Shown: positions 2,144 to 54,000 of the stretch, piece by piece | How positions within the stretch are numbered: position 1 is the first letter of the stretch | How the letters are laid out: every line of letters starts with the position of its first letter | Assembly (NCBI RefSeq): GCF_037975245.1 | Contig: NC_092579.1 | Location: 8,464,001 to 8,528,000, forward strand | DNA: 64,000 bases | From: Apostichopus japonicus | Taxonomy: Eukaryota > Echinodermata > Holothuroidea > Aspidochirotida > Stichopodidae | Reading direction: 5' to 3' | Made by a program: the position numbers and the translations under genes | The notes under the pieces: generated by a model | What the model was told of the DNA's origin: nothing | Seen by the model: the letters and a program-made list of their open reading frames with translations, nothing else | Database searches by the model: none

Positions 2144-3778
2144 TATGGAACGCCAAAAGGACCACAGTGACATGTACCACTACTAATTTGACATGTACTA
2201 CTACTAATTCGAAGTGTACTACTACTAATTTGAAGTGTAATACATGTAAAATGTCGCGTACTACTACTAATTCGAAGTGTACTACATCTTAAATGTCGCG
2301 TACTACTACTAATTCGAAGTGTACTACATCTAAAAAGTCACGTACTACTACTAAATTGGAGAGATGGCGCTATTCACAATCTTTCCGATACCATGTCATC
2401 GAGTTGCGCATCTGCATTAAAATAATGATGAAGAAAACATATTCTTCAATACTCTGTTGATTCAAATGTCTATTTTACAGTTTATACCTTTAGGGTCTGT
2501 GGCAAATATAGAAAATAGCATGTACTTTGGCACAGCTGGGGAATAAAAAGCATTCTTGACATTTCAATGACGGGGAAATTGCTGCTTGTGAATAATAATG
2601 TGTATAACAATTTTAAGAGTTAAAAACTGAAGCTACATTAAGCACATTCTTGGGGATCGATGGTTCCACCTGCTGGGGCTTCGAAAACTTGTTGCTTTGC
2701 CACCACTGGATTTTATTTGTGTGATGCCCAATGGTCACAGACAATGGTGATTATAGTATTAGTAATGAAGGCAAGGAGAAGGGGAACATTCAGGAAGACT
2801 GACACGTACATATATACTCCTAATCCTACGCATACTAAGCTCTGCATATACACACATTACTGTGCCAAAATCTAAATTTAAACGGTAACGTATATTTGGG
2901 CTCTTAAGTTATGCTCGGAATTAATCCATGACCTAGTACTTTAGTAGGCCTATATTCAGGCCATTTGTAGAACACCTAAAATGCATACGGTACTAGACCT
3001 GTATATAATTTAAACAAGTAGCAGTTTTGGAATATCATTTAAATTAGACACTATCGGCCTAGCCGCAGCTTGGCCTAGCATATAGAAAAAGTCTAGGAAG
3101 CCTAACTTTAGCTCATTAACAGTAGCACCTCACCGGTCTTTTCTGAATGTAAAGCAGCCTTTTGCGTTTGGGCGCCGTTTTCTATTTTTGTGACATGTTC
3201 ATCGAGTTTTTTACATATATATATATATATATATATATATCAAATACACCAGTTTTTTAACTCTTAAAATTGTTATACCCACTATTATTCACAAGCAGCA
3301 ATTTCCCCGTCATTGAAATGTCAAGAATGCTTTAGATTTCCCAGCTGTGCTTAACTATATGCTATTTTCTATATTTGCCACAGACCTTAAAGGTATAAAC
3401 TGTAAAATAGACATTTGAATCAACAGAGTATTGAAGAATATGTTTTCTTCATCGTTATTTTAATGCAGATGCGCAACTCGATGACATGGTATCGGAAAGA
3501 TTGTGAATAGCGCCATCTCTCCAATTTAGTAGTAGTACGTGACTTTTTAGATGTAGTACACTTCGAATTAGTAGTAGTACGCGACATTTTAGATGTAGTA
3601 CACTTCGAATTAGTAGTAGTACGCGACATTTTAGATGTAGTACACTTCGAATTAGTAGTAGTACGCGACATTTTACATGTATTACACTTCAAATTAGTAG
3701 TAGTACACTTCGAATTAGTAGTAGTACATGTCAAATTAGTAGTGGTACATGTCACTGTGGTCCTTTTGGCGTTCCATA
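2144..3778. mobile_element. 1.6-kb long-inverted-repeat (foldback/MITE-like) element inserted in a coding exon
   Basis: The ends are inverted copies starting TATGGAACGCCAAAAGG. The target hexamer TATGTG is present on both sides (2138-2143 and 3779-3784). The arms are long: about 2144-2630 on the left and 3250-3778 on the right. Each carries a 42-bp tandem unit (two to three copies) that reads openly as a Thr/Ser/Lys/Cys-rich peptide. The interior (2631-3249) is AT-rich with a TA microsatellite and has no transposase-like frame. This is a non-autonomous element of unassigned superfamily. Using only a TA duplication would not restore the host frame, whereas the hexamer does, which supports a 6-bp duplication. 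Confidence 0.85.
3217..3240. repeat. (TA)n microsatellite
   Basis: A run of alternating T and A lies in the interior of the long-inverted-repeat element. Confidence 0.9.
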
Positions 3779-29315: not shown

Positions 29316-30036
29316 ATTGTTTCGCGATACTATCCTAACAATGTCACATCAGTGATGTGTCCCGCATATTAATAAGATGCCTAGTAAAACACCATCGCGA
29401 ACGTCTGGCAGGTCGTCAAAATCGTCTGCCTCCTCGAGGCCCACTGTGCTCTCATCAAAGTCCTTTCGACGTCCTCGGTCGATGCCCCAAGATAACCGAA
29501 GATGGCCGGAGAGCTTTGGCTTTACAATAGGTGGGGATGCTCCTACCTACATCCTCACGGTGGAACCAGAAAGTCATGCATATTCAGCAGGTCTCCAGCC
29601 AGGCGACCAACTCGTGGAATTACAGAATGAGAACGTGGCGGCCTTGTCGGGCGATGCTGTGAAAGCCTTAGCAAGGCAGTGCAGTAATGTCCCTCCAAGC
29701 ATCGTGGTTGTGTCCTGTGTGAAAACCTGTGAACTTTTACAGGACAAGAATGGCAAATTTGGGATGGGTCTCATCGGTGGCGGGCCAGTCTTCATTGAGA
29801 CAGTCGAGAAGGGCGGGCCGGCGGAAATGGTGGGCCTCTCCGGTGGGGATATGGTACTGGAAATGAATGGCCTGCCCATCAAACATTGCGACGATGCCAA
29901 ACTCTTTAGCGGCTCTAAGAAACTGAAAATGCTAATCATACCAGGTGCGGGTCACACATCGGTGAAAAAGATAGCTCAGCGGTTTGAAGCAAAAGCTCAA
30001 GACAGGAAGCTGCAGGCAATAAACTTCTTTAGAAAG
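29316..30036 (+). CDS. GRID2IP: delphilin-like exon 1: start codon, PDZ1 and PDZ2
   Basis: The acceptor TTTTTCAG precedes 29316 and the donor AAG|GTGAGT follows 30036, phase 0. The ATG at 29377 is the first in the frame, preceded by two in-frame-style stops (TAATAA). The protein opens with a Ser/Arg-rich tail (about 40 residues). Then comes a PDZ with carboxylate loop SFGF (46-49) and AGLQPGDQL, and a second PDZ-like repeat with FGMGLI (128-133) and VGLSGGDMVLEMNG. Both PDZ units lying in one uninterrupted exon is notable. Confidence 0.9.
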
Positions 30037-33000
30037 GTGAGTGTCAAAGACAAACAAATTTAATTATTTCATATCTGTCTTGTCTAGACATTTACGGTTT
30101 GTATCCTGACATAGGTGCACTTAGCTGGCAAACACTTCTAGTTGCTACAGTAGTTTTCCAATTGACCTACTTTTGCATTACCTCCATTCACCTGACCCCC
30201 CCGCCCCCTTACACTTTGGACAATCATGTTCAATCAGTTTCTTCATTTCATTTATTGTTTTCTACGCAAAAGCTAGCATGTTTCAATTAATTCAATTACG
30301 TAAAACTTCTCCTTTTAATTCTGTTTGCGTCTATATGTTTCATCAATTCATGATTTATTGCACTGTGTTATGATTTGCCAGAGATACTACAGTACCTGTG
30401 TAATACTCTGTATAGTATGCTATGTACAGTAAATACAGGGAAATAATTTATGTAGTCTTCAAATTTGCGCAGCATTTTTGAATGCAGTCAAACATTTTAT
30501 TTTATAAAATAATATAAAGTTTCTGCATACATGAACAAAAACAGCACTAGTTACACAATTTTTGCTCTTTTGCCAATATTGTATCAATTTATCATTTTGG
30601 GATGCAATACCAGATCTGGGCAATAGGTGGCATCATACATGAACAAAAACTGCTACACAGTTTTTGCTCTTTTGCCAATATTGTATCAATTTATCATTTT
30701 GGGATGCAATTTACCAGATCCGGGCAATACTGTAGGTGGCATCATACATGAACAAAAACTGCTACACAATTTTTGCTCTTTTGCCAATATTGTATAAATT
30801 TATCATTTTGGGATGCAATTTACCAGATCCGGGCAATACATGTGGGTGGCATCATACAGTACATGTATACAAATTGTGAAGTATACTGTATATGACATCT
30901 CTTTTTAGTGTTTCTGGAATTGAGCAGTACTTAGTTGAAAAGTACAGAAATGTCTTTGAATAACTCAACTCCAGTGTAATTCCCACTGCAGTCATTTGTT
31001 TTGCTCCCAATAAGAATGTGATAATTTATGATAGTTTCTCATTGCTCCAAAAATTGTGACATGCTGAACTTACAATTATCATTCCCTTCTACTGTATGCA
31101 ACAGTAAGAAAATTGACCCGTTACCAACTGACGTACTGTGCTGAGATGATAAACATTTGTTATGACATTGGTTGGTAGTCCCTAGAAAGCAGTTTGTGAG
31201 AATATTGTCACCACAGTTTAAGTAAACTATCAATATATATGATACTTTCAAATGGGGGATGGGCAGAGATGTCGGGGGGGAGGGAGGTGTCGGGGTAAAC
31301 AGCCCCAGTGTCAAGTATTAGGCCCAGAGAAATATGGATGATGTGATTTTATTCCCATTCTCATGAGATACCATCAAAATGAAAAATGACAATTTTAATA
31401 CCCCAAAACTGAAAAATGACAATTTTATAATCAGGCCCCCATGGCACAGCAATTTTCCCTGGTTCCTGGCCTGGCTCTTGATGTGCACCTGGACTCTAAA
31501 CTTGGTTAAAAGAAAGTACAAAACTGTTTCAGTAATAAATGAATTGTATTCACATTTGAAAAGCAACATGGATGACACTGTTGAACGTTTACACTCACTT
31601 TTTGAATGAAAATGAACCGGTCAAGGTAATGACCTAGATTGGACATTATGGGATCTTAGTATATTAAACGTTAAGTCTACTCAAATAGGAACTACAATAA
31701 GAACTGGGCCAATTAAATTACAACTGTACTGAAAGCACTTTTAGAACACTACAGTATCAATTCATCAACAGTATTTGCAGCACACAACGTGCACGCATGT
31801 ACATGCATACTAGATAGACAAATCTACAGTTTAAGTACAGTTAGTTCATTATTGGCTCTCTCTCATGAAAGAATTCCATCCGCATCTAGAAATACTAATT
31901 AACGAAGTACCATTCACTGTTAGTGTACAAGGATGGTAGCATTAAACACACTTAATTAATGTTTTCCATCATACAGCATTAGACTATATAAACATTGCAG
32001 ATGTGTGTGTGTTGTTTCTAACGCACGGTGCTATACTGTAGTTCGTTACGTAAAGTGCCCGTCTACTCGGAAACAGTTCCCACCCAACTGACTCATCTCA
32101 AATCATTTCATTCTGTCACTGGGAGCCAATCAATTCCCTTCGTTAGGGATCCATCTCATACAGTTAAATGCACCTGTTGTACACAGCTATTGTGTACCAG
32201 ACAATAGGCCTTCCATCTTGGCATGGCAAATATATTGATTTTTTGGGAGTTTTCTGATGTACACATAACTGCAGGACTTTAGTACTGTATGATTGTAAAT
32301 AAATTCAAGTTATTCATTTAATTGCACACAGCATTGCAACTAAGCCATAATTAGTTGCAGTAGGCCTACAATAAGAGAACACTGTAAAGCTACTGTACAG
32401 TAGTAGGATTTTTGTTGTTGTTATATCAGAAATCCAGTGATGAGCTTATCCTCTTCCCCTTTTAAGTACAATAGTCTAATAAGTACTACATAGTACAATT
32501 GCCTATTTAACCAAGTTCAGGGCTGTACAGGAAAAGGTACAGTTTATACAGACAATCACAGTAGCTTATATACAGTACTACAGTAAACATTGTAGGCAAC
32601 TTCTTTGTGCAAATTACACTCTCCAAGAAGAATTTCTAGCATCACTGTCAATGCAAATTATAATTTTCCACACGTACAGTAAATTTATTCAAAGTTGACA
32701 AAAATACTTACCTGTACACTAAAAGTAGTAATAACTTTGATAAAAAAAATATGATTGTATTTTGCATTAATGAAAAATGGTAATAAATAATAATTTAATA
32801 ATTGACAGAAAGCACTGTATGATGTACACATGATCCAATGCATACAGAAAAAGGAGAAGAAAATAAAAAAAAAACAAGAAATTTCAACATATATATGCAC
32901 TTGGTATTTTCCATCATTGATTGTTAACCTAATAAGCCAGTTTTTTTTTGCGACAAATTAAGAATGTGATCTTTATTGTGACAATGGGAGCTTATGAGCT

Positions 33001-39000: not shown

Positions 39001-42000
39001 AATTTGTTTCTTGACTCTTTTTGCAGGATTTTTGTACCTCCCAAACATCGAGATAGGTTTGACTTTTTAATTACAAAGAACGCACCATCAAAAGGAAGAA
39101 GGTAAGAGACTGCCTCTTCTTGCGCTCATTGAGCACCCTCCCGGGTGGATATGTACACGTTATAAGTCACCAGATATTAAATTATATGTTTGTTAATTTA
39201 CAATAGTAGTTAAATCCTAGTACAGTGCTCTCATGTAACTACTGTATCTCCCTACTAAACCTGTTTTCATTGAGCCTTACATGCACTTTAAACTCATGTT
39301 ATACTGAAATAGTACCATTCATAAAAAGAAGAAAAAACAAGATTTTGAACATTCAAATAGCTAAAACATATAGCTTTCTGTGGTACAAAACATGTGTGAG
39401 TAGCAATTTGGTCATACTGTTTCAGAAAAGCATTCCCTAGTGTGTGTTCAGTATTCTGTTTATCTCATTTTAGCTTGATCCCATTTGGCATGTTGCCCAA
39501 TTTGTTGTAACTTTGGTAACTGAAGTTTCCCCCTGTAGGGCATTGTCCTGAAAGAAAAACAAGTTTAAGTTCTGGTTTTTGATGCCTGATTAAAAATCCT
39601 TTTTAATCTACCTCACCTGTTATATTTATCTAACAGGATCTTACTGGTAGAGTAATCAATTAAAGTTGTCACTGATGTCATCCTTCTGGAACCTTAAATG
39701 TCCATGCTGTTGGAACTTTGCCAAGTCATCAGAAAAGTTAACAAATTATTAGTGACATATCAAACAATAAGGAGGGAAAGATCCTTCTCAGTTTGCATAT
39801 AGTTGGTAACCTTTTATTGGTGAATAACCTTTTATATATTCATGAGCAGGTCATGAGTCAGCATTCAGAAAACAAGTTTTAAAACAAATTATTGGGACAT
39901 CCAGTAAATGTGGCACTAGCAATTTTGTTTATTTCTTGTGTTTATTTTTTTCATTGAGAAAGAAAGTATACTTTTTTTTTAGCCATCATTTATTGTCAAA
40001 TCTTTTGCCATGATAACAAACTTATGTAAAAACATACTGTATATATGACACTAAAAAACTGTTTGATTAAAACTATTCAATATTCAACGAGCAAGTATAC
40101 TAGTAGTGTTCAGTCTCCCCGACCTCACCAAACATGAAAAGCACAACTTACAGTACAACATAATTAAATATAAATTTACTGAGATGGAAGCTTATAGAAC
40201 ACAAAATCTAAAGCAGGATTGGAAATAAGACGATAAAACAACATTTTACAAAGATAATAATGTATGGGTTGGAAGATGTGGGGCTTGGAAGGGAAGCAAT
40301 GGGGAAAATAATTCTTCCAAATAAGTACTCTAAATGGCAAAATGGTGAAGAGGTAACCAAGTAACCCTTACCAGAAAGCTAAAATAATCCAATAATTTGA
40401 AAGTATAGCCTGCTGTACAATACATATGTGTGCTAGAAGCACAAGGCGTTAGTACATGTGCAGTTATAGTTGAATGTACAGTGTGTGTAATTACAGTGTG
40501 TGTTTTCACTGAAGTCAAGCTGAACCCCAGCTTTCTTTCTTGTTTTGTACAGTTGTGATATTTTTATATTCCAAAATTGTTCTTATCAGCCTCTTTTTCT
40601 TTTGTGCACTTTGCAGATCAATTAAATACATAGCAAGGAATAATTTAGTTTTGAAATTTTGTATACGTATATATCTCATCTTTGTCTCTTATAAAATACT
40701 ACGGTTTCTTCATAACAAACCCCCCCCCCCCCCAAAAAAAAAAAAAAACATGATAGAATGAGCACTTTGGGATACAACACTGGAAAAATTAGTACTCAAT
40801 AATTTGATTATGATGTTCGTTTCTTCACACAATATCTATGTATCATATTTTGATATTTCAGAATTGTTCAGATCAACAGAGCATCAACTGGTGCATTTGG
40901 GTTTGTGTTAGCTGGCGATAAACCAGTCATCGTAGAATCCGTACAGCCCGGTAAGTAGAGATTGCCTGAGTATCAATGCGCAACTCAGGAGAGTTAAAGA
41001 TATGTCACCTTCGTTCAGGGACTTGCAGTGGCATTGCCAGACATTCCCCCTCACTTCTCCTCCCCCTCCTACCCTCTCCTCCCTTCTCCCCCTCCTACCC
41101 TCTCCTCCCTTCTCCCCCTCCTACCCTCTCCTCCCTTCTCCCCCTCCCCTGGGAAGCCACTGTGGACTTGACCTATTGTATAATATAATATTCCCTGAAG
41201 ATGAATTCCACAGATGAGCTACTTGAATCAAAATGTAAATAATATTTCATACTCTCATGCACACTCTTTTTTATCCCCCCACTCATCAGGTGGCCCAGCA
41301 AGCCAGTCAGGGCTACGTCCAGGCGATCGTATCCTTAAACTAGATGGCTACGAAGTCCGGGATCTTACCCACAATGAGCTCATTGCCCTGCTAAGAAAAA
41401 GTGGGGATGAACCTAAAATGGTGGTAGAAACTGGCCCTCCTCTTCCATCTGAGGGTAAGTCCCATTTTCTTCAACGAGAACAATTGTTGAATTAACCAAA
41501 GTTGACTTAGTTCGTCAGGAAACTCCACAGAGCCAACAGTATGACATTTTCATTATTATCCTCCATTTTGAAAAACATTACATATTTTTCTGTTATTACC
41601 TACATTACGGATTCAATAACTGAGTATACCTGCAGTATCCCTGTTCATGTACACTAGGTATAATATACTGCCAGCGCTTTTCCGGATATTATTGTTTTTA
41701 CATAATCCTTGGAGATTAGGGTCACCCTTTTGATGCAAGATTTCTGTTCGAATCAAGGTCAAAGGTCATAGTCTGAGATGTGTATTATTGTGATAATATT
41801 TGTGCAGGTGTAACGTGAAGCGAGTCATCTTTAATAGCTTTTCATTGATTGTTTAATCATGCAGTGGATCCTATGATCATTAACATGATAGGAGGCATTT
41901 GTTATTGCGATCGCTATAAATATTTGAATAGTATTATTGTACGTTTTGTCTCTGCGGTTGCACTGTATGTATTGATAATGTTATGTACTATGAAAACTAA

Positions 42001-45000
42001 AGAGAAGAAAAAGAACTCACAAAATTATCATGAATATTTGTATAAATATCAAATGTGTCAATAAAAGAGATGGGAAAAAAACCAAAAAATTGATAGGAGG
42101 CATTCGTCAACATAATCCTGACACTGCATTTACTCATTGTATGTAAATTACCACATGTATCGTGCATGACAACGATATTGCGTACTTCTCTTTCTCAATC
42201 TCCTGTCTTGATGTCTCCTTCACACAGGTCAGTCTTTGGCTGCTATTTCGATGTCATCGAGTGTCAGTGTGTCCTCGCAGAGCGACACGTCCTCCATGTC
42301 GGGATGGCAGTCTGAGACGTCACACACCACGACGGATGACACCCGCAGCGTCACCACACAGAAGCTGTCTCAGATGGACATGCAGACTCTTGGGAGACGG
42401 TTCAAGGAGATGGTAAGTCTCAGGGATGTGCCCAGGATTTCCTGAGTGCTGGGCATACTGATCGCCGTCCTGAGGGAGGGGGTGCCCCCTCCCATTTGAG
42501 AATTTTTTTTCGATTTTTGAAGGTGCTCACAGATGCCAAATGCTGGCACTTGTGTAGCTTTTGAAGCACATACACGAGTACTAATTTTGCTAACAATTTA
42601 CATTTTTAAATTTTTTTTTAGTGAAATATATTACTTACCAGGTAAAAGTTATTAGTTTGTTTCAAATAGATTTTAAAAGGGACCGATTGAGAGCCGTGAG
42701 TAATGTTTCTCACATGCGTAACTCATGCATTATAAGTCTGTATGGATGATTCTAAGATTAACAAACTTGAGAGTGTTATCTGTAGGGGTTTGTCATCTAT
42801 TGTGTGAGATGGATTTATCTCTCATAATCCAACTAAGTCCTCTTCTTGAGATGGTTAGAAGGACAACAATGTTTCCTTTCTTCAAAATGAAATCAGTCAG
42901 TCATTATAGTCTTTGCGGGGAAAAAGCTATTTTGGTGTTCGAGCAAGGTGAAGAGAGAGGGCAGATGGTGAAGATGCTACTATCTACTTCAGATATATCA
43001 AGAAAGAAAATGATTTACATACAGGCATTTGGTTTGGGCGGATTTGGATTCAATCTTCTTATCATCTTTCCAAAGATCCAAGCTATATATCACCAACCAT
43101 CTAAAAATCTTTATTTGAACAGTGTTGTGAGCATCTCTGATCTATTGTCAGAATTACATGCTCAATAGAGTTTTAAGAGTATTACAACACATTTATGTCG
43201 ATATTCTACCATGCTGATAAAAATAAAGACATCTTTATCAGACAAGGATACTTATTACTGACTGTTGTCTTGTTTGAATAGTTTGGTAAGGTTTTGATCG
43301 TTCAATAAAATGTTCAGTAATATCTTCCTTCTGTCTTTCTGTAGATGGAGCACCACCTTACTCTTCAAGAAAGGAAACTGATGAAGAAAGCTTTGAAGGA
43401 ATATAATCTTAGCAGGTATGTACGGTTAATCCTGGAAGAAACCTTTAAAGGAGCATAATGTTACCAGGTATATGTACGGTAAATCCTGGAAGAAACCTTT
43501 AACGGAGCATAATGTCACCAGGTATATGTACGGTAAATCCTGGAAGAAACCTTTAACGGAGCATAATGTTACCAGGTATATGTACGGTAAATCCTGGAAG
43601 AAACCTTTAAAGGAGCATAATGTTACCAGGTATATGTACGGTAAATCCTGGAAGAAACCTTTAACGGAGCATAATGTTACCAGGTATATGTACAGTAAAT
43701 CCTGGAAGAAACCTTAAAAGGAGCATAATGTTACCAGGTATATGTAGGTTAAATCCTGGAAGAAGGCATTGAAGGAGCATAATGTTAAAAGGTATATGTA
43801 GGTTAAATCCTAGAAGAATGCATTAAAAGAGCATAATGTTACCAGGTATATGTAGGTTAAATCCTAGAAGAATGCATTAAAAGAGCATAATGTTACCAGG
43901 TATATGTAGGTTAAATCCTAGAAGAATGCATTAAAAGAGCATAATGTTACCAGGTATATGTAGGTTAAACCCTAGAAGAAGGCATTAAAGGAGCATAATG
44001 TTACCAGGTATATGTAGGTTAAATCCTAGAAGAATGCATTAAAAGAGCATAATGTTACCAGGTATATGTAGGTTAAACCCTAGAAGAAGGCATTAAAGGA
44101 GCATAATGTCACCAGGTATATGTAGGTTAAACCCTAGAAGAAGGCATTAAAGGAGCATAATGTCACCAGGTATATGTAGGTTAAACCCTAGAAGAAGGCA
44201 TTAAAGGAGCATAATGTCACCAGGTATATGTAGGTTAAACCCTAGAAGAAGGCATTAAAGGAGCATAATGTTACCAGGTATATGTAGGTTAAATCCTAGT
44301 TAGAAAGCTTGTCATTAGAAAAGGAAACTAGATCCTAACTACAAACTAGGCTAAATGAAGTGGGCTGCAACATTATTTAAGCAAGTCACTAACATAAGAA
44401 CAAGTAACGTGAGAGAAAGTTCTCTGTAGTTTTCCCAGTTACGTAGTATTGTATGTACAGAGTTGGAAAACCTTGTAAACCAACCAACCCAGATTTGTGG
44501 GAAGTTCAAGTTTCCCACAGGAAACTGAGAAATAAATAAAATGAAGTAGCTAGAAGTATTGGTACAATAGCAGGGGATTGGAGATACTTAATGCTAAACC
44601 TTGTTCATGAGAAATACAGCAAGGGTTTCCGACCCTGGGTAGACATTATTTGTGGGGGTGGGGGTGGGAAGGGGATTGACGGGCTTTGCCATGTATAACT
44701 TGACCTGACACAGAACTACAATAGTTTACTTTGCTCCTTACGTACCTATCTCCACACAACCTCCATGAGTGAGAGTTCTGAGGTTGTGAGGAGACAGGTA
44801 AGCTCATCACTCATCAAACCTGGTAAGCTTGTGGATAACCAACGCATACAGTGTTACCTGTAGTGGAACAGATGATCGTCTGAGTGTGTTAAATTTACCA
44901 TGGCAACATTGACATACAGTAAATAGAGAATCATTGTGTTATTGTTTTAGATAAGATTACCAAACAAGCGGAGACAATTTCAAAATTGGCCTCAGATTCT

Positions 45001-48000
45001 TTAGACGAGGAATAAATCAAAGCTCTTATTTGATGTATTGTTTTTAACCCCTGCTTCTTAATCAGGCTATTATTCACAGGAAATGATGATGTATCCATTT
45101 GATGATGTATTGCCACATGTTATTAATATTACAGACAATTCACATTTGGTTCAACAACTTCCTCACAGACAAAGTACAGACACTAGATAAGTATCCAATG
45201 TGTCCAATGAAAGATAAGGACCTCTCTCTGCATGTGATTGGTTACATGTAATCTGATTATAACAGACGTCACAATATTACAAAATGTTGGCTTTCTCACA
45301 AGAAACTACCTCACAGAATAGATTTTTGATTACAAAACATAAACCTTTAATGTTTGTATTGTTTAACACATGGGATATATTAATATGCAAAGACCACAGT
45401 ATGCATGTAATATGGATTGGAAGGAATGCATGGTGACTTGTACTGTACTCATATTCCTACTGGAGTACATTTTCCCGTACTCATGCACATGGGTGTTTTC
45501 TTGTAGTGTACTCATATTTATACTGGAGTACATTTTCCCATACACATACACATGGGTGTTTTTTGGTACTGTACTCATATTCATACTGGAGTACATTTCC
45601 CGTACTCATACACATGGGTTTGTTCTTGTGCTGTACTCGTGTTCATACTGGAGTACATTTTCCCGTACTCATGCACATGGGTGTTTTGTTGTACTGTGCT
45701 CATATTCTTACTGGAGTACATTTTCCCGTACACATACACATGGGTGTTTTTTTGTACTGTACTCATATTCTTACTGGAGTACATTTTCCCGTACTCATAC
45801 ACATGGGTTTGTTCTTGTGCTGTACTCATGTTCATACTGGAGTACATTTTCCCGTTCTAATGCACATGGGTGTTTTGTTGTACTGTGCTCATATTCTTAC
45901 TGGAGTACATTTTCCCATACTCATACACATGGGTTTGTTCTGGTACTGGTACTCGATTTCAGCAACATATAATTATCATGTACCTACAAAGTACCTACAA
46001 CTCATACTCATGGCTTTGTACTGATAATTTTGCCAGTACTAGTGGACTTTTACCAGTATTTGTATTAGGGACATTGTACTTACATTACAAGTCTGCTGTA
46101 TTCCATATCTGCAGGAATTTGGATGCTCTTATCGTCGAGATCTTCCCGATCCTGGACACGAATGCCAAGAGGACCATTTGGCCGTACATTGTACAGATCT
46201 TGCCAGAAGAAGAACAGGAAGTTTGTAAAAAGAAAGTTGTCTATTTAATAGACCGGCATACTGCAGGTTTGTTTTACACATTTTACAGTAAATGTCAGAA
46301 ATTTTAGAAATTCAAAGCATTGATGAGTTTAGTTGTGGGTGGCATTTAATCTCTATTTAGCTTGCTTGTCGTTTTTATATGTTCATCTTGTCCACATGTG
46401 AGAATAGTAGCTTAGGTCCTTGACAGTGAACAGGGCTATTGTATGTGCATGCAACCTACAATTTTCGAGGAAGAAAATTCAATTTGAATCATTATTTGTA
46501 GGATTTGATTCTACTTTTGAGTGATATCACCCTTATTACATAATATACAGCTGATTATTCAGTTGTATTGTGATTCCTACTACTAACAATTTTCCTGTGG
46601 GGAAAACCCAAAATGTAAGGCCTGGCTGTCTGCGGGACAACCAGAAAAAATCCTTACAAATTTGTCAGGAGATTTAGTAGAGAATTAAGTACAGATTAGT
46701 AGGTTATTAAGTAGTTGGACAGATATCTCATTGCTTGAGGGGATGCAACAAGCATCTTAACACTGACTGTATAGGTGAGTCTCAGATATATTCTTGTGCA
46801 TTTTGAATAACCAATAGTCTTATTTTATACAGCAAACCAAAGATTGTGATCACATTTACCTCTTCAGTGCTTTGCCTCCCACCTACCGCTCAAGCTGGAA
46901 ACGTTAACAAGCATGCATAAAAGAAACGTTTATTCAATGCTGTTTGTTCCTTAGAGAATGCCAACAATCCTTGTGAATCAATGTATGCTTCAGCATGGTC
47001 GCCTAAGCGTCGTAAAAATAACTGCCACATTTTTATGATTATTATTATTATTGTTTTTATTATGATAGAATATTCATATAACTGTCTATATTATAAAATA
47101 GTGAAATACAACAGAATGGACATAACGATAGATCCAGTCGAAAAAAAAAACACCGAAAAAACAAGCAGGGTTTTGCAATTTAATTTGTCATCTGAAATAA
47201 CCCATTTGTACGCCATTCATAAAGAGCAAACTGACTGGAAGGTTAGTCGGAATTGCCCAACCGCTCAGTTGGGGGGGGGGGGGTGGGGGAGAGATAGAGC
47301 ATATCCCATTCTAACCCAATTATTCAGTCTGCTCAATTGATTTTTGTTTCTTTTCTCTTCTTTTTTGCTTGCTGAAAAGTTCTAAACAATTGTTTTAAGA
47401 AAAAAATATAAGTATAAACATGCAGAAAAAAAGGTAATAATGATAGTAATAATAACAAGATTTGAAGTAGCAAAAATGCCAAACATTGAAAGTACAAGTT
47501 GTGTCAATTTATCATGCAAACATTTGAATTTTACATTTTGCAAGTTAATTCCTATCATCCAATTATTTGCTTCATAATATATATTCCCCCCCCCCCAACT
47601 TAAAACTTAGGTCAGTTTTAATGTAAAATATGAAATGCCTAAACCATGAGGGTCATCAAAATACAAAAGTTATCATTCATGTATTTGAATTTCCACAAAG
47701 GACTACCAGTAATATTGGAAGAACCAGGTACAGTTCTCATATATAATCGTTACTAGCTCAAGCAGATTCTTTGAAACATTTTTTTTTTAAAATTTGATAT
47801 TGCAGCTTTTTTGCAGTTTTATAGTTTCACTCCTGGCCTAGTGTCGATCTGATTTGTTTTACTTTTGGGTTAATGTTCTTCTCTTATACCAAGCCTTATC
47901 AATTATCTGGTTTTTGACCTTTTGATTTTTTCCCTTTTAATTTTTTATCCTTGCTATTTGAATTAGCCCATTTTTTGTTTTAAATACTTTCTCTGAAACC

Positions 48001-51000: not shown

Positions 51001-54000
51001 CTGGCCAGTTTGTGCGGTTTAAATTTTGATGAGCAATTTGGTTTCCCATCAATTGGTGTCTTTCAGTAGCACACTTTTTTTTTTCTTTGCCTGTTGCATG
51101 ATTGGTGACTGAAATGTAAACATCTGCAGTTGCAAATAATTGTTTAAAATTAGCAATTGGTGATGATGATCTGTCCCTCTATTAGTCTCTGAAACTTTGC
51201 ACAAGTTTTACTGTTTTTTTTTATCATTGCTAAAGCCATTAGTGATGACTCATTAAATTTCTTTTGTTTCCTGTGTATTTGTTTATACTTTACTTATTCT
51301 GTACTTTTGTCTATTTTATATTTAATGTACCAATTTCTTATAGTTTGAAAAGCGGCATTATTTCAAGTAAAACTTGAAAGTTGTTTTTTACATTCTGATA
51401 ATTTTGCCTCCTTGCTGGAAGCAAATGAACCTATGTGGTCAGGTTTGGCATGGGTGTCCGTGAACCTTCAGTTGGATTGAAGCCAAAATTGGTATACAGT
51501 TGTTGGTTAACAGCTGGTTCATGTAGGCCTACATTTTTTGTGAACATCCAAAATTCTGGGCCCATTTTTAAGCTGGGTGGGCCCAATTTGTTGTATTTCC
51601 ATCTCAAATGCATGGTGGGACACATTCTTAGGGCCCAAAGTTGTGGGGACCATTCTGGTTCAATTTTTTGGGGCTAGTATTATTTTGGAACCAGTTTGAT
51701 TGGGCCAAACATATTTGCGACCACTTAGGCACAACATTTTTTTCAGGCGAAAATTGTGAAGTTGCAATAACTCCACAAACTAAAAATCGAACCAAACATG
51801 GAATACAGTTTGTTGGTTAATAGCAGATACTTGTGGGCTTAATAAACATTCATTTTATCACCTATGATATTGGGTGATGACATGCAACACTATACTATTC
51901 CACTGCAAGGAGTCCTTTAAGTTGAATGTGAAAATTACAAGTATTAAAATGTAATTCTTTGTGGCTGTTAAACGTGACAAATTTATGGCAAAGTAGAAAA
52001 TACTTGACTTGACTATGTGACTGTAATTTATGTTAATATCATTCCCCTTAAATAGCCTTCAGTCTATGTTGTACATTTCAAAAGTGGTTTCCGTTTTGAA
52101 AAAACCGCATTTAGTTTTGAGGAATGCATTTAGTTTTGAGGAATGACCCTTTAAACATCAGAGTCGCAAGAGTTAAAGCAGCTGGACTATTTAGTAGTCC
52201 CTCAATAGGAAAACATATAACTTTTTATGACCTCAAAGAATATGTTAGTCATGGGACAATTAGCTCACAGTAACATCCTCCCCTCACTCATGGAACTTTG
52301 ATTTGCCTTTAAAAGTCAATGTACAGTGAAACTCTCAAGTCATTGGCATAGGGGTCAATCTTTATTTGGAAGGCCACATTCTAAGGAATGTGTGTGTTTA
52401 ATATTAGTGCAAGGCCTTGTTTGGTTGGCCAGTAGTAAAATCTATAAACTAACGTTACAGCATTCATTTGGTAAATACTATGTTTTCAATAATGTTTTTC
52501 ATCACAAATAATATAATTTTAACCCTCAGATTCTGAAGGGGCCCATCTCATCGGCTCACGCAGGAGACGGGACGACTTTGAAACATCGTTTCCGAGGGCA
52601 ACCGTCAGTGCAGGTAAAAAGCTATAGTCCACACTAATGAAAAAAACCACAAGGAAATGAACTATTCTCTTCCCATCTTACGCGTAACATGCATCAAGAA
52701 TGTGCTGTGTTTCCAACTTATTGCCTGTATCAAACCAATATGCATAATTATACTTCAAAATCCCTTGAAAATGCTTTTCAGAATTTGTGCTGCATTTTAA
52801 TAATTAATGCTATTGCTTTCCTCGCTTATATATTAACAATGACATATTTCAGAAGACTTTCAAGGACCAAGGTTTGATCCGGAAGCCACGGCCATGCCGT
52901 CTCGTAACAAGCTGTCACGACATAGCACGCTAACAGAGCAGGACTTTTACAATGGTGATGATGACGATGATGAGGACATCTTTCCTATTCCAAAGAGGAA
53001 TGGCCAACGGCTAGGTAAATCTAACAACTTGCCATATAAATCTCTCCATTTGAAATTTTAAGTTTAAGGTATCTTTTCTTTGGAAATTTGATTGTTTCCG
53101 TGCCATTTCCTCTACGCTTAGGTATGTATCAGGCATGAGCTTTTTCCGCGAATTGGCGGAATATCTGTGACTCCTTTTCTACCTCCGAGATTTAGACCTC
53201 TCAATGTCCGTATCCTAACACACTGTAGCATACGCAAACTGGAGCCTGTACCGCAATTTTGGCAGAGTTCTGTGATATTTTTTTTTACCCTAGGCTCATC
53301 CCTGATACATGTAGAAATTGAAAATTTGTGTACTGTGTTTGAACATATTTCAAACCAATTTTATTTTTTATGCTATGTACGTTAAATTTAAATCGTATGA
53401 TTTTTGCTTTCGCGCTGGTATTTACTCTAATTACTTGCTGTATTCTTTATTTTGAACATTGGCCTTTGGGTGAAAGTCTAGATTCCCAAACATTCCCATC
53501 TTGTTCTCTTCTCAAGAAAAAAAAAACCCAACCAATTTACTGCTTTGCTCCCCCCTCCCAAATTCTATCCTTTCCTCAATATTTTATAAAGCAAAGCTTA
53601 AGTTTTATAATGCAAGATATGAAGGCCCTGTTTAACCATTGAAATATAATACTCTGTGCTTAAGCCTCTCTTGCAAAAGACACAGGCCATCATACTTGTA
53701 ATATTTCAATTTGAGAATATTAGTTATATTGCAAAAAGGAACTTTTGTGTAAGACCTGCAGAGATGGTCATTTAATTGTATGGTACCATGTTGTATCAGA
53801 TTCTCATTATGGATATGAGAAAAGATGGAGTCTACTTGGCTAGCATTGGTTAATAACAAAAATTGTATTACAGTTGATTTTAAAAGTGAAGATGCAAACT
53901 TGGCTAGTGGTGGTTTATTACAAAATTTTGTATTCAAAGTTTATTATAAATAGTTAATATGCTTATTTGGCCGGGGCTGGTTAATAGCAGTATCTTCATA

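Follow-up and report, generated by a model that had tools for sequence, protein, structure and literature searches.

An intronic minisatellite of a probably delphilin-like gene in Apostichopus japonicus, probably grown from the gene's own exon/intron boundary

The closest precedent for the array described here is the human IFI6 (6-16) gene, in which a minisatellite supplies multiple splice donors, as stated in a title cited in PMC2572611, PMC2915984 and PMC3618361; its downstream repeat units are reported as donors in use in the available text of PMC4526556. Related arrangements are described, in the available text of the respective papers, for several other genes: tandem dual-specific AG/GT sites occur in UBC and VCX3A (PMC10809524), in potato RdRp an intron-exon (acceptor) boundary was duplicated in tandem and gave rise to a new intron (PMC4974935), and the length of an intronic VNTR in ABCA7 correlates with exon skipping (PMC5954066). 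Our search of the open-licence literature found no echinoderm case of such an array. The locus reported here carries a 54-bp repeat in an intron, with a donor-like site in each unit. We consider it probable that this repeat is a locally born, largely neutral intronic minisatellite in which the main donor comes first and the copies are weaker decoys.

The host gene lies on the + strand of the 64-kb stretch of DNA that was analysed (G000:C19:8464001-8528000, the window) and is probably delphilin-like (a delphilin/GRID2IP formin), judging by the domains predicted along it. PDZ domains were found in the reading frames 29356-30063 and 41205-41495 (E-values 3.2e-15 and 1.3e-8), a candidate harmonin-N-like domain would be split across an exon ending at 42412 and the exons 43345-43415 and 46115-46266, and four FH2 pieces lie beyond the window, at a distance of 1.4-3.9 kb and on the same strand. 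GRID2IP/delphilin formins combine PDZ and harmonin-N-like domains, and all nine formin subtypes are retained in echinoderms, according to the available text of PMC5047451. The joined peptide matched whirlin 6fdd weakly (E=0.02), the alignment having a one-residue gap near the exon junction, and the next match was an unrelated beta sliding clamp at 0.18; Pfam returned a single weak match, DUF2100, below its cut-off, and nothing close to a cut-off. Following the topology of harmonin-N domains, we take the exon 43345-43415 to lie at helix 2 of the domain and the exon 46115-46266 to run from helix 3 onwards. The features of the locus are as follows.

43345..43415, + strand: exon of 71 nt ("exon 7" in an earlier numbering) encoding MEHHLTLQERKLMKKALKEYNLSR; acceptor pyrimidine tract of 94%, frame matching both flanking exons
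43383..43415, + strand: unit 0, the 33-nt copy of the unit inside the exon and presumed source of the array; 25-27/33 bases identical to each of the 16 units, TRF start at 43383
43416..43421, + strand: canonical donor GTATGT with G at +5; U1 duplex of -9.7 kcal/mol
43416..44277, + strand: intronic array of 16 units (the first of 52 bp, then fifteen of 54 bp), with AG/GT at each unit end
43416..43737, + strand: proximal block A, units 1-6, delimited on the variant map
43456..43458, + strand: TAA reached in the exon's frame by read-through, 5′ of all decoy donors
43738..44277, + strand: distal block B (units 7-16); stops interrupt each of the three forward frames, and units are identical in sets
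46115..46266, + strand: next exon, 152 nt, encoding NLDALIVEIFPILDTNAKRTIW..., followed by the donor GTTTGT; one of 17 donors (43415) joins to it without a stop

TRF places the 54-bp array at 43383-44308 (17.2 copies, 94% matches), with its first base inside the exon 43345-43415. The units stand head to tail, and their length and number are those of a minisatellite (units of 10-100 bp in many copies). A partial copy follows the 16 full units, to about 44308. Donor-like sites stand at 43415 and then at sixteen positions given by 43467+54n, for a total of 17 AG/GT sites phased on the array (the true donor plus one per unit). The sequence-only reading had the array start at the real donor, with a 54-bp unit and a donor-like CAG/GTATAT in each of 16 units. 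These details need revision: the homologous unit begins 33 nt upstream of the donor, and the real donor is CAG/GTATGT, the G at +5 being kept in none of the 16 decoys. The 16 donor-like sites are all present, and 15 of them read CAG/GTATAT, the remaining one (43791) being AAG/GTATAT. The 54-bp length likewise holds for fifteen of 16 spacings; the first is 52 bp, its unit lacking the AT that converts GTATGT to GTATATGT.

The IFI6 array reportedly spans an exon end and is built from a unit of roughly 12 bp, whereas the unit here measures 54 bp and includes 33 nt of exon. The two loci share minisatellite units that carry donor sites, several of them usable in principle as far as the IFI6 sources state, and here too a donor-like site occurs in every unit with the true donor first. 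They differ in that downstream units are reported as used in IFI6, whereas the copies described here are putative donors, lack the +5 G, and lead to a premature stop in 16 of 16 cases.

As judged from the alignments, the array is an amplified exon/intron boundary. Its derivation from the exon's own end and 5′ splice site, proposed in the sequence-only reading, is borne out by the identity of 25-27 of the exon's last 33 nt (43383-43415) to each of the 16 units. Over the proposed extent of 38 nt, put at about three-quarters identity in that reading, the figure is 66-71% (25-27/38). Local alignment of the exon scored 31 with the block-A consensus, 31 with the block-B consensus and 36 with unit 1; the highest scores among 2000 dinucleotide shuffles each were 24, 28 and 27, respectively. 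These tests covered unit 1 and the two consensuses. In a further survey, 11 array samples from the window were compared with eight rough exon intervals, each extended by 60 bases on either side, with 60 single-base shuffles. The present pair ranked highest (z 7.8), the runner-up was a low-complexity, CT-rich array (z 5.9), and all others reached at most 3.5; within these samples and intervals, the search for other exon-derived arrays thus left the CT-rich array as the only one besides this array above z 3.5.

Two 27-mer patterns, taken from the exon-like and the intron-like parts of the unit and allowed up to 3 mismatches, were searched across the 671.6-Mb genome (35 contigs) and matched 16 and 18 places, of which 16/16 and 15/18 lie inside the array. 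The other 3 places carry 3 mismatches and lie on other contigs; the reversed control of the 18-place pattern gave 2 matches. DNA similarity searches of the same genome, in which very common words were skipped and masked stretches excluded, placed the unit at this locus alone. An origin from a dispersed satellite or transposon was looked for in these searches and none was found, the 3 extra places being set against the 2 of the reversed control; a better match elsewhere than to the exon, which would have counted against exon ancestry, did not turn up within the limits of the searches. That an unrelated intronic satellite came to resemble the exon end by chance gains something from the shortness of the match (33 nt with 6-8 differences). 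We nevertheless regard this as very unlikely, because the alignment scores exceed those of the shuffles, the match is in register with both the array phase and the splice site, the unit has no other home in the genome searches, and the exon-array pair heads the survey (z 7.8 against 5.9 and at most 3.5); on the shuffles and the genome searches, we rejected a chance match.

The pattern of divergence bears on how the array arose. The exon copy differs from the units at 6-8 of 33 positions, four of which set it apart from all 16 units, while units differ from one another at 3.3 positions on average and at 8 at most. A greater distance of the exon from the units than of the units among themselves is expected if the source lies outside the homogenised array. 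Counting against this origin, some unit pairs are up to 8/33 apart, which equals the exon-unit divergence. Identical units occur in sets (8, 9, 10 and 12; 13-15; 11 and 16; 3 and 5), which points to later amplification within the array. We propose that the exon's last 33 nt, the 5′ splice site and some 21 nt of the intron were duplicated in tandem, and that this duplicate, which would be old, diverged before slippage or unequal exchange within the intron multiplied it to 16 copies. We infer both the mechanism of amplification and the direction from exon to array, the latter because this part of the exon contributes to the weak whirlin alignment and shares a reading frame with the exons on either side. 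The case of potato RdRp, as far as its available text goes, is similar in that a boundary-crossing duplication carried splice signals; it differs in that an acceptor boundary was duplicated and a new intron resulted, whereas here a donor boundary is present 16-fold and nothing points to a new intron.

The first donor and its copies differ in predicted strength. The real donor pairs with U1 at -9.7 kcal/mol, fifteen of the decoys at -7.4 and the sixteenth at -5.9. Six donors were assigned in the host gene (30036, 38344, 41454, 42412, 43415 and 46266), all with G at +5, and they were selected partly by consensus, so that a comparison of their +5 G with the decoys is partly circular; a seventh, uncertain candidate near 53014 (GTAAAT, no +5 G) was excluded from that comparison. 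The lack of +5 G and the lower U1 pairing argue for weak use of the decoys. Some use is plausible, because their -7.4 is close to the -7.5 of the next exon's presumed donor. Among the 206 GT sites in 43300-46115, the real donor has the second-best U1 score. Four intron GT sites outscore the decoys, at 44797 (-11.0), 44657 (-9.0), 44663 (-8.5) and 44822 (-8.0), the first of them outscoring the real donor as well, so U1 pairing alone is not decisive for use. The site at 44797 is itself a strong donor motif, CAG/GTAAGC, in the same intron. Splicing would occur mainly at the first donor, which combines the consensus +5 G with the true exon end, and the copies would act as weaker decoy donors.

Use of any decoy would add 13 residues and then a stop midway through the harmonin-N-like domain; the transcript would become a target of decay, or else the protein would be truncated and lack the FH2 part. 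Alternatively, the array could be a functional splice-donor array as in human IFI6. Several units would then serve as donors and create a "poison extension", with which the gene moves between transcripts for the full formin and truncated or decayed ones, perhaps under the control of copy number. This is unlikely in our estimate, although 15 of 16 decoys keep CAG/GTATAT at a U1 energy near that of the next exon's presumed donor, two downstream repeat units of IFI6 are said to be donors in the available text of PMC4526556, and a single uniform stop results from all 16 decoys. The decoys lack the +5 G and the first donor pairs better; the uniform stop is explained by the 52-bp first spacing alone; and the donor columns show no clear excess of conservation. 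On this last point, 15 of the 16 decoys are identical over nine bases, and equally invariant windows occur elsewhere in the unit, at 24% of offsets for 9 columns and at 9% for 12 columns (units 2-16). Since other stretches of the unit are equally constant, the constancy of the donor is weak evidence of selection, and homogenisation explains it without selection.

A more elaborate version, in which 16 donors compete with the true one for U1 and the length of the array sets the share of full-length formin against a PDZ-only or decayed product, strikes us as distinctly improbable. If such a splicing rheostat were true, the AT missing from the first unit would both keep the true donor dominant, through its +5 G, and make each decoy a stop. 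RNA structure that masks the donors was also considered and ruled out, since the array shows no excess folding (z -0.88; 3 of 20 shuffles fold equally well). An effect of an intronic minisatellite on splicing would have a parallel in ABCA7, the exon origin of whose units is not stated in the abstract. A near-neutral array appears to us the most likely state.

Read-through in the exon's frame runs ...NLSR-YVRLILEETFKGA-stop, the TAA at 43456-43458 lying nine bases 5′ of the first decoy donor. It is the first spacing of 52 rather than 54 bp that brings read-through to this TAA. The stop falls 13 residues past the exon's last codon for read-through and for each of the 16 decoy donors; among the 17 donors joined to the exon 46115-46266, the in-frame continuation NLDALIVEIF... 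arises from the donor at 43415 alone. The suggestion of the sequence-only reading that the array lengthens helix 2, or serves to amplify coding helix repeats, is thereby contradicted. Its observation that the proximal units are open stands, with 95 codons at 43430-43717, in a frame that differs from, and is discontinuous with, that of the exon. The units are thus not open in the frame of the preceding exon, as those of a coding tandem repeat would be.

That the units code now or did so recently, providing extra in-frame helix-2 repeats in some isoforms or individuals, is exceedingly improbable. The idea draws on a unit of 54 bp, or 18 codons, on the mostly open homologous frame of block A (43430-43717), and on the likeness of the peptides, KKALKEYNLSR in the exon against KKPLKEHNVTR in unit 1 and KKALKEHNVTR in unit 11. 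The TAA at 43456 in the exon's frame, which none of the 16 decoys avoids, stands against it, as do the stops in the homologous frame of unit 6 and of block B. Differences between the exon and the block-A units show no coding bias (p 0.33-0.59), while those between the exon and block B lean to conservative codons (shuffle p 0.01-0.05 for units 7-16, which are related and hence non-independent). Such a lean might be a trace of former coding in the unit; constraint acting on the evolution of the exon itself is enough to explain it. In this assembly, coding helix amplification is ruled out by frame.

The AG/GT present at every unit boundary is what a dual-specific site requires, and the units could therefore form a ladder of such sites, removed as mini-introns of 52/54 nt or by stepwise (recursive) splicing. 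We see very little chance of this. The bounding of each unit by AG/GT speaks for it, as does human UBC, where a tandem array of AG/GT sites is active in splicing and, in the available text of PMC10809524, is considered as a way in which introns are created. The acceptor side is where the ladder falls short, since pyrimidines make up only 31-38% of the sequence before AG at the exon end and at the unit ends scored, which were five of the 16; the two true acceptors scored alongside them have 94% and 69%. None of these scored unit ends carries the pyrimidine tract of a competent acceptor. In addition, 54 nt is a short intron for most animals. The likeness to UBC and VCX3A, as their available description goes, extends to AG/GT at each tandem-repeat boundary and a unit length that is a multiple of 3. 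The UBC repeat is coding and its sites are used both ways, whereas the array here is intronic and out of frame, with scored ends that lack pyrimidine tracts.

To place the array among other tandem repeats, we took a base-rate sample of 264 kb, made up of the window and 20 fixed samples of 10 kb each, in which arrays of 20-250 bp in three or more copies were counted and overlapping rows merged. Fifteen arrays were kept, and those whose best row had under 3 copies were dropped, for example a 63/189-bp array. A donor-like site that pairs better than the decoys occurs in two of the 14 other arrays (on either strand and at any position relative to exon ends), namely a 113-bp array of three copies (L017; -9.7) and the window array at 41060-41147 (-8.6, minus strand). 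The sample does not show how rare exon-end arrays are. One 10-kb sample (L010, G000:C14:3000001-3010000) is filled by a single 22-bp satellite in about 454 copies. The intron of the 54-bp array contains a second minisatellite, at window positions 45437-45954, with a 63-bp unit in 8.2 copies and a 189-bp higher order; each of its three forward frames contains long open stretches, and its closest match among the rough exon intervals is a weak one (z 3.5, minus strand). At 2144-3778 of the window, two 42-bp minisatellites form inverted copies within long inverted arms (454 nt at 94%; 218 nt at 97%), and the element is perhaps a non-autonomous DNA transposon with subterminal repeats. Elsewhere in the assembly, COX1 pieces are split and repeated on the minus strand of G000:C29:14745-31219, while C35 carries a full-length COX1, open over 517 codons under several mitochondrial codes and, when translated with code 9 (AAA as Asn), echinoderm-like in our judgement; the C29 pieces may represent a second or rearranged mitochondrial contig, or alternatively a nuclear copy.

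The array of A. japonicus is best filed as belonging to an already known kind, IFI6-like, with copies weaker than their source. It offers a clear snapshot of an exon/intron boundary that would have seeded its own minisatellite, and a natural test of spliceosome choice, in which one strong donor faces 16 near-identical weaker ones in a row. Should the decoys be used, splicing would vary with copy number; should they not be, the locus would show how far a donor is protected by its +5 G and its position.
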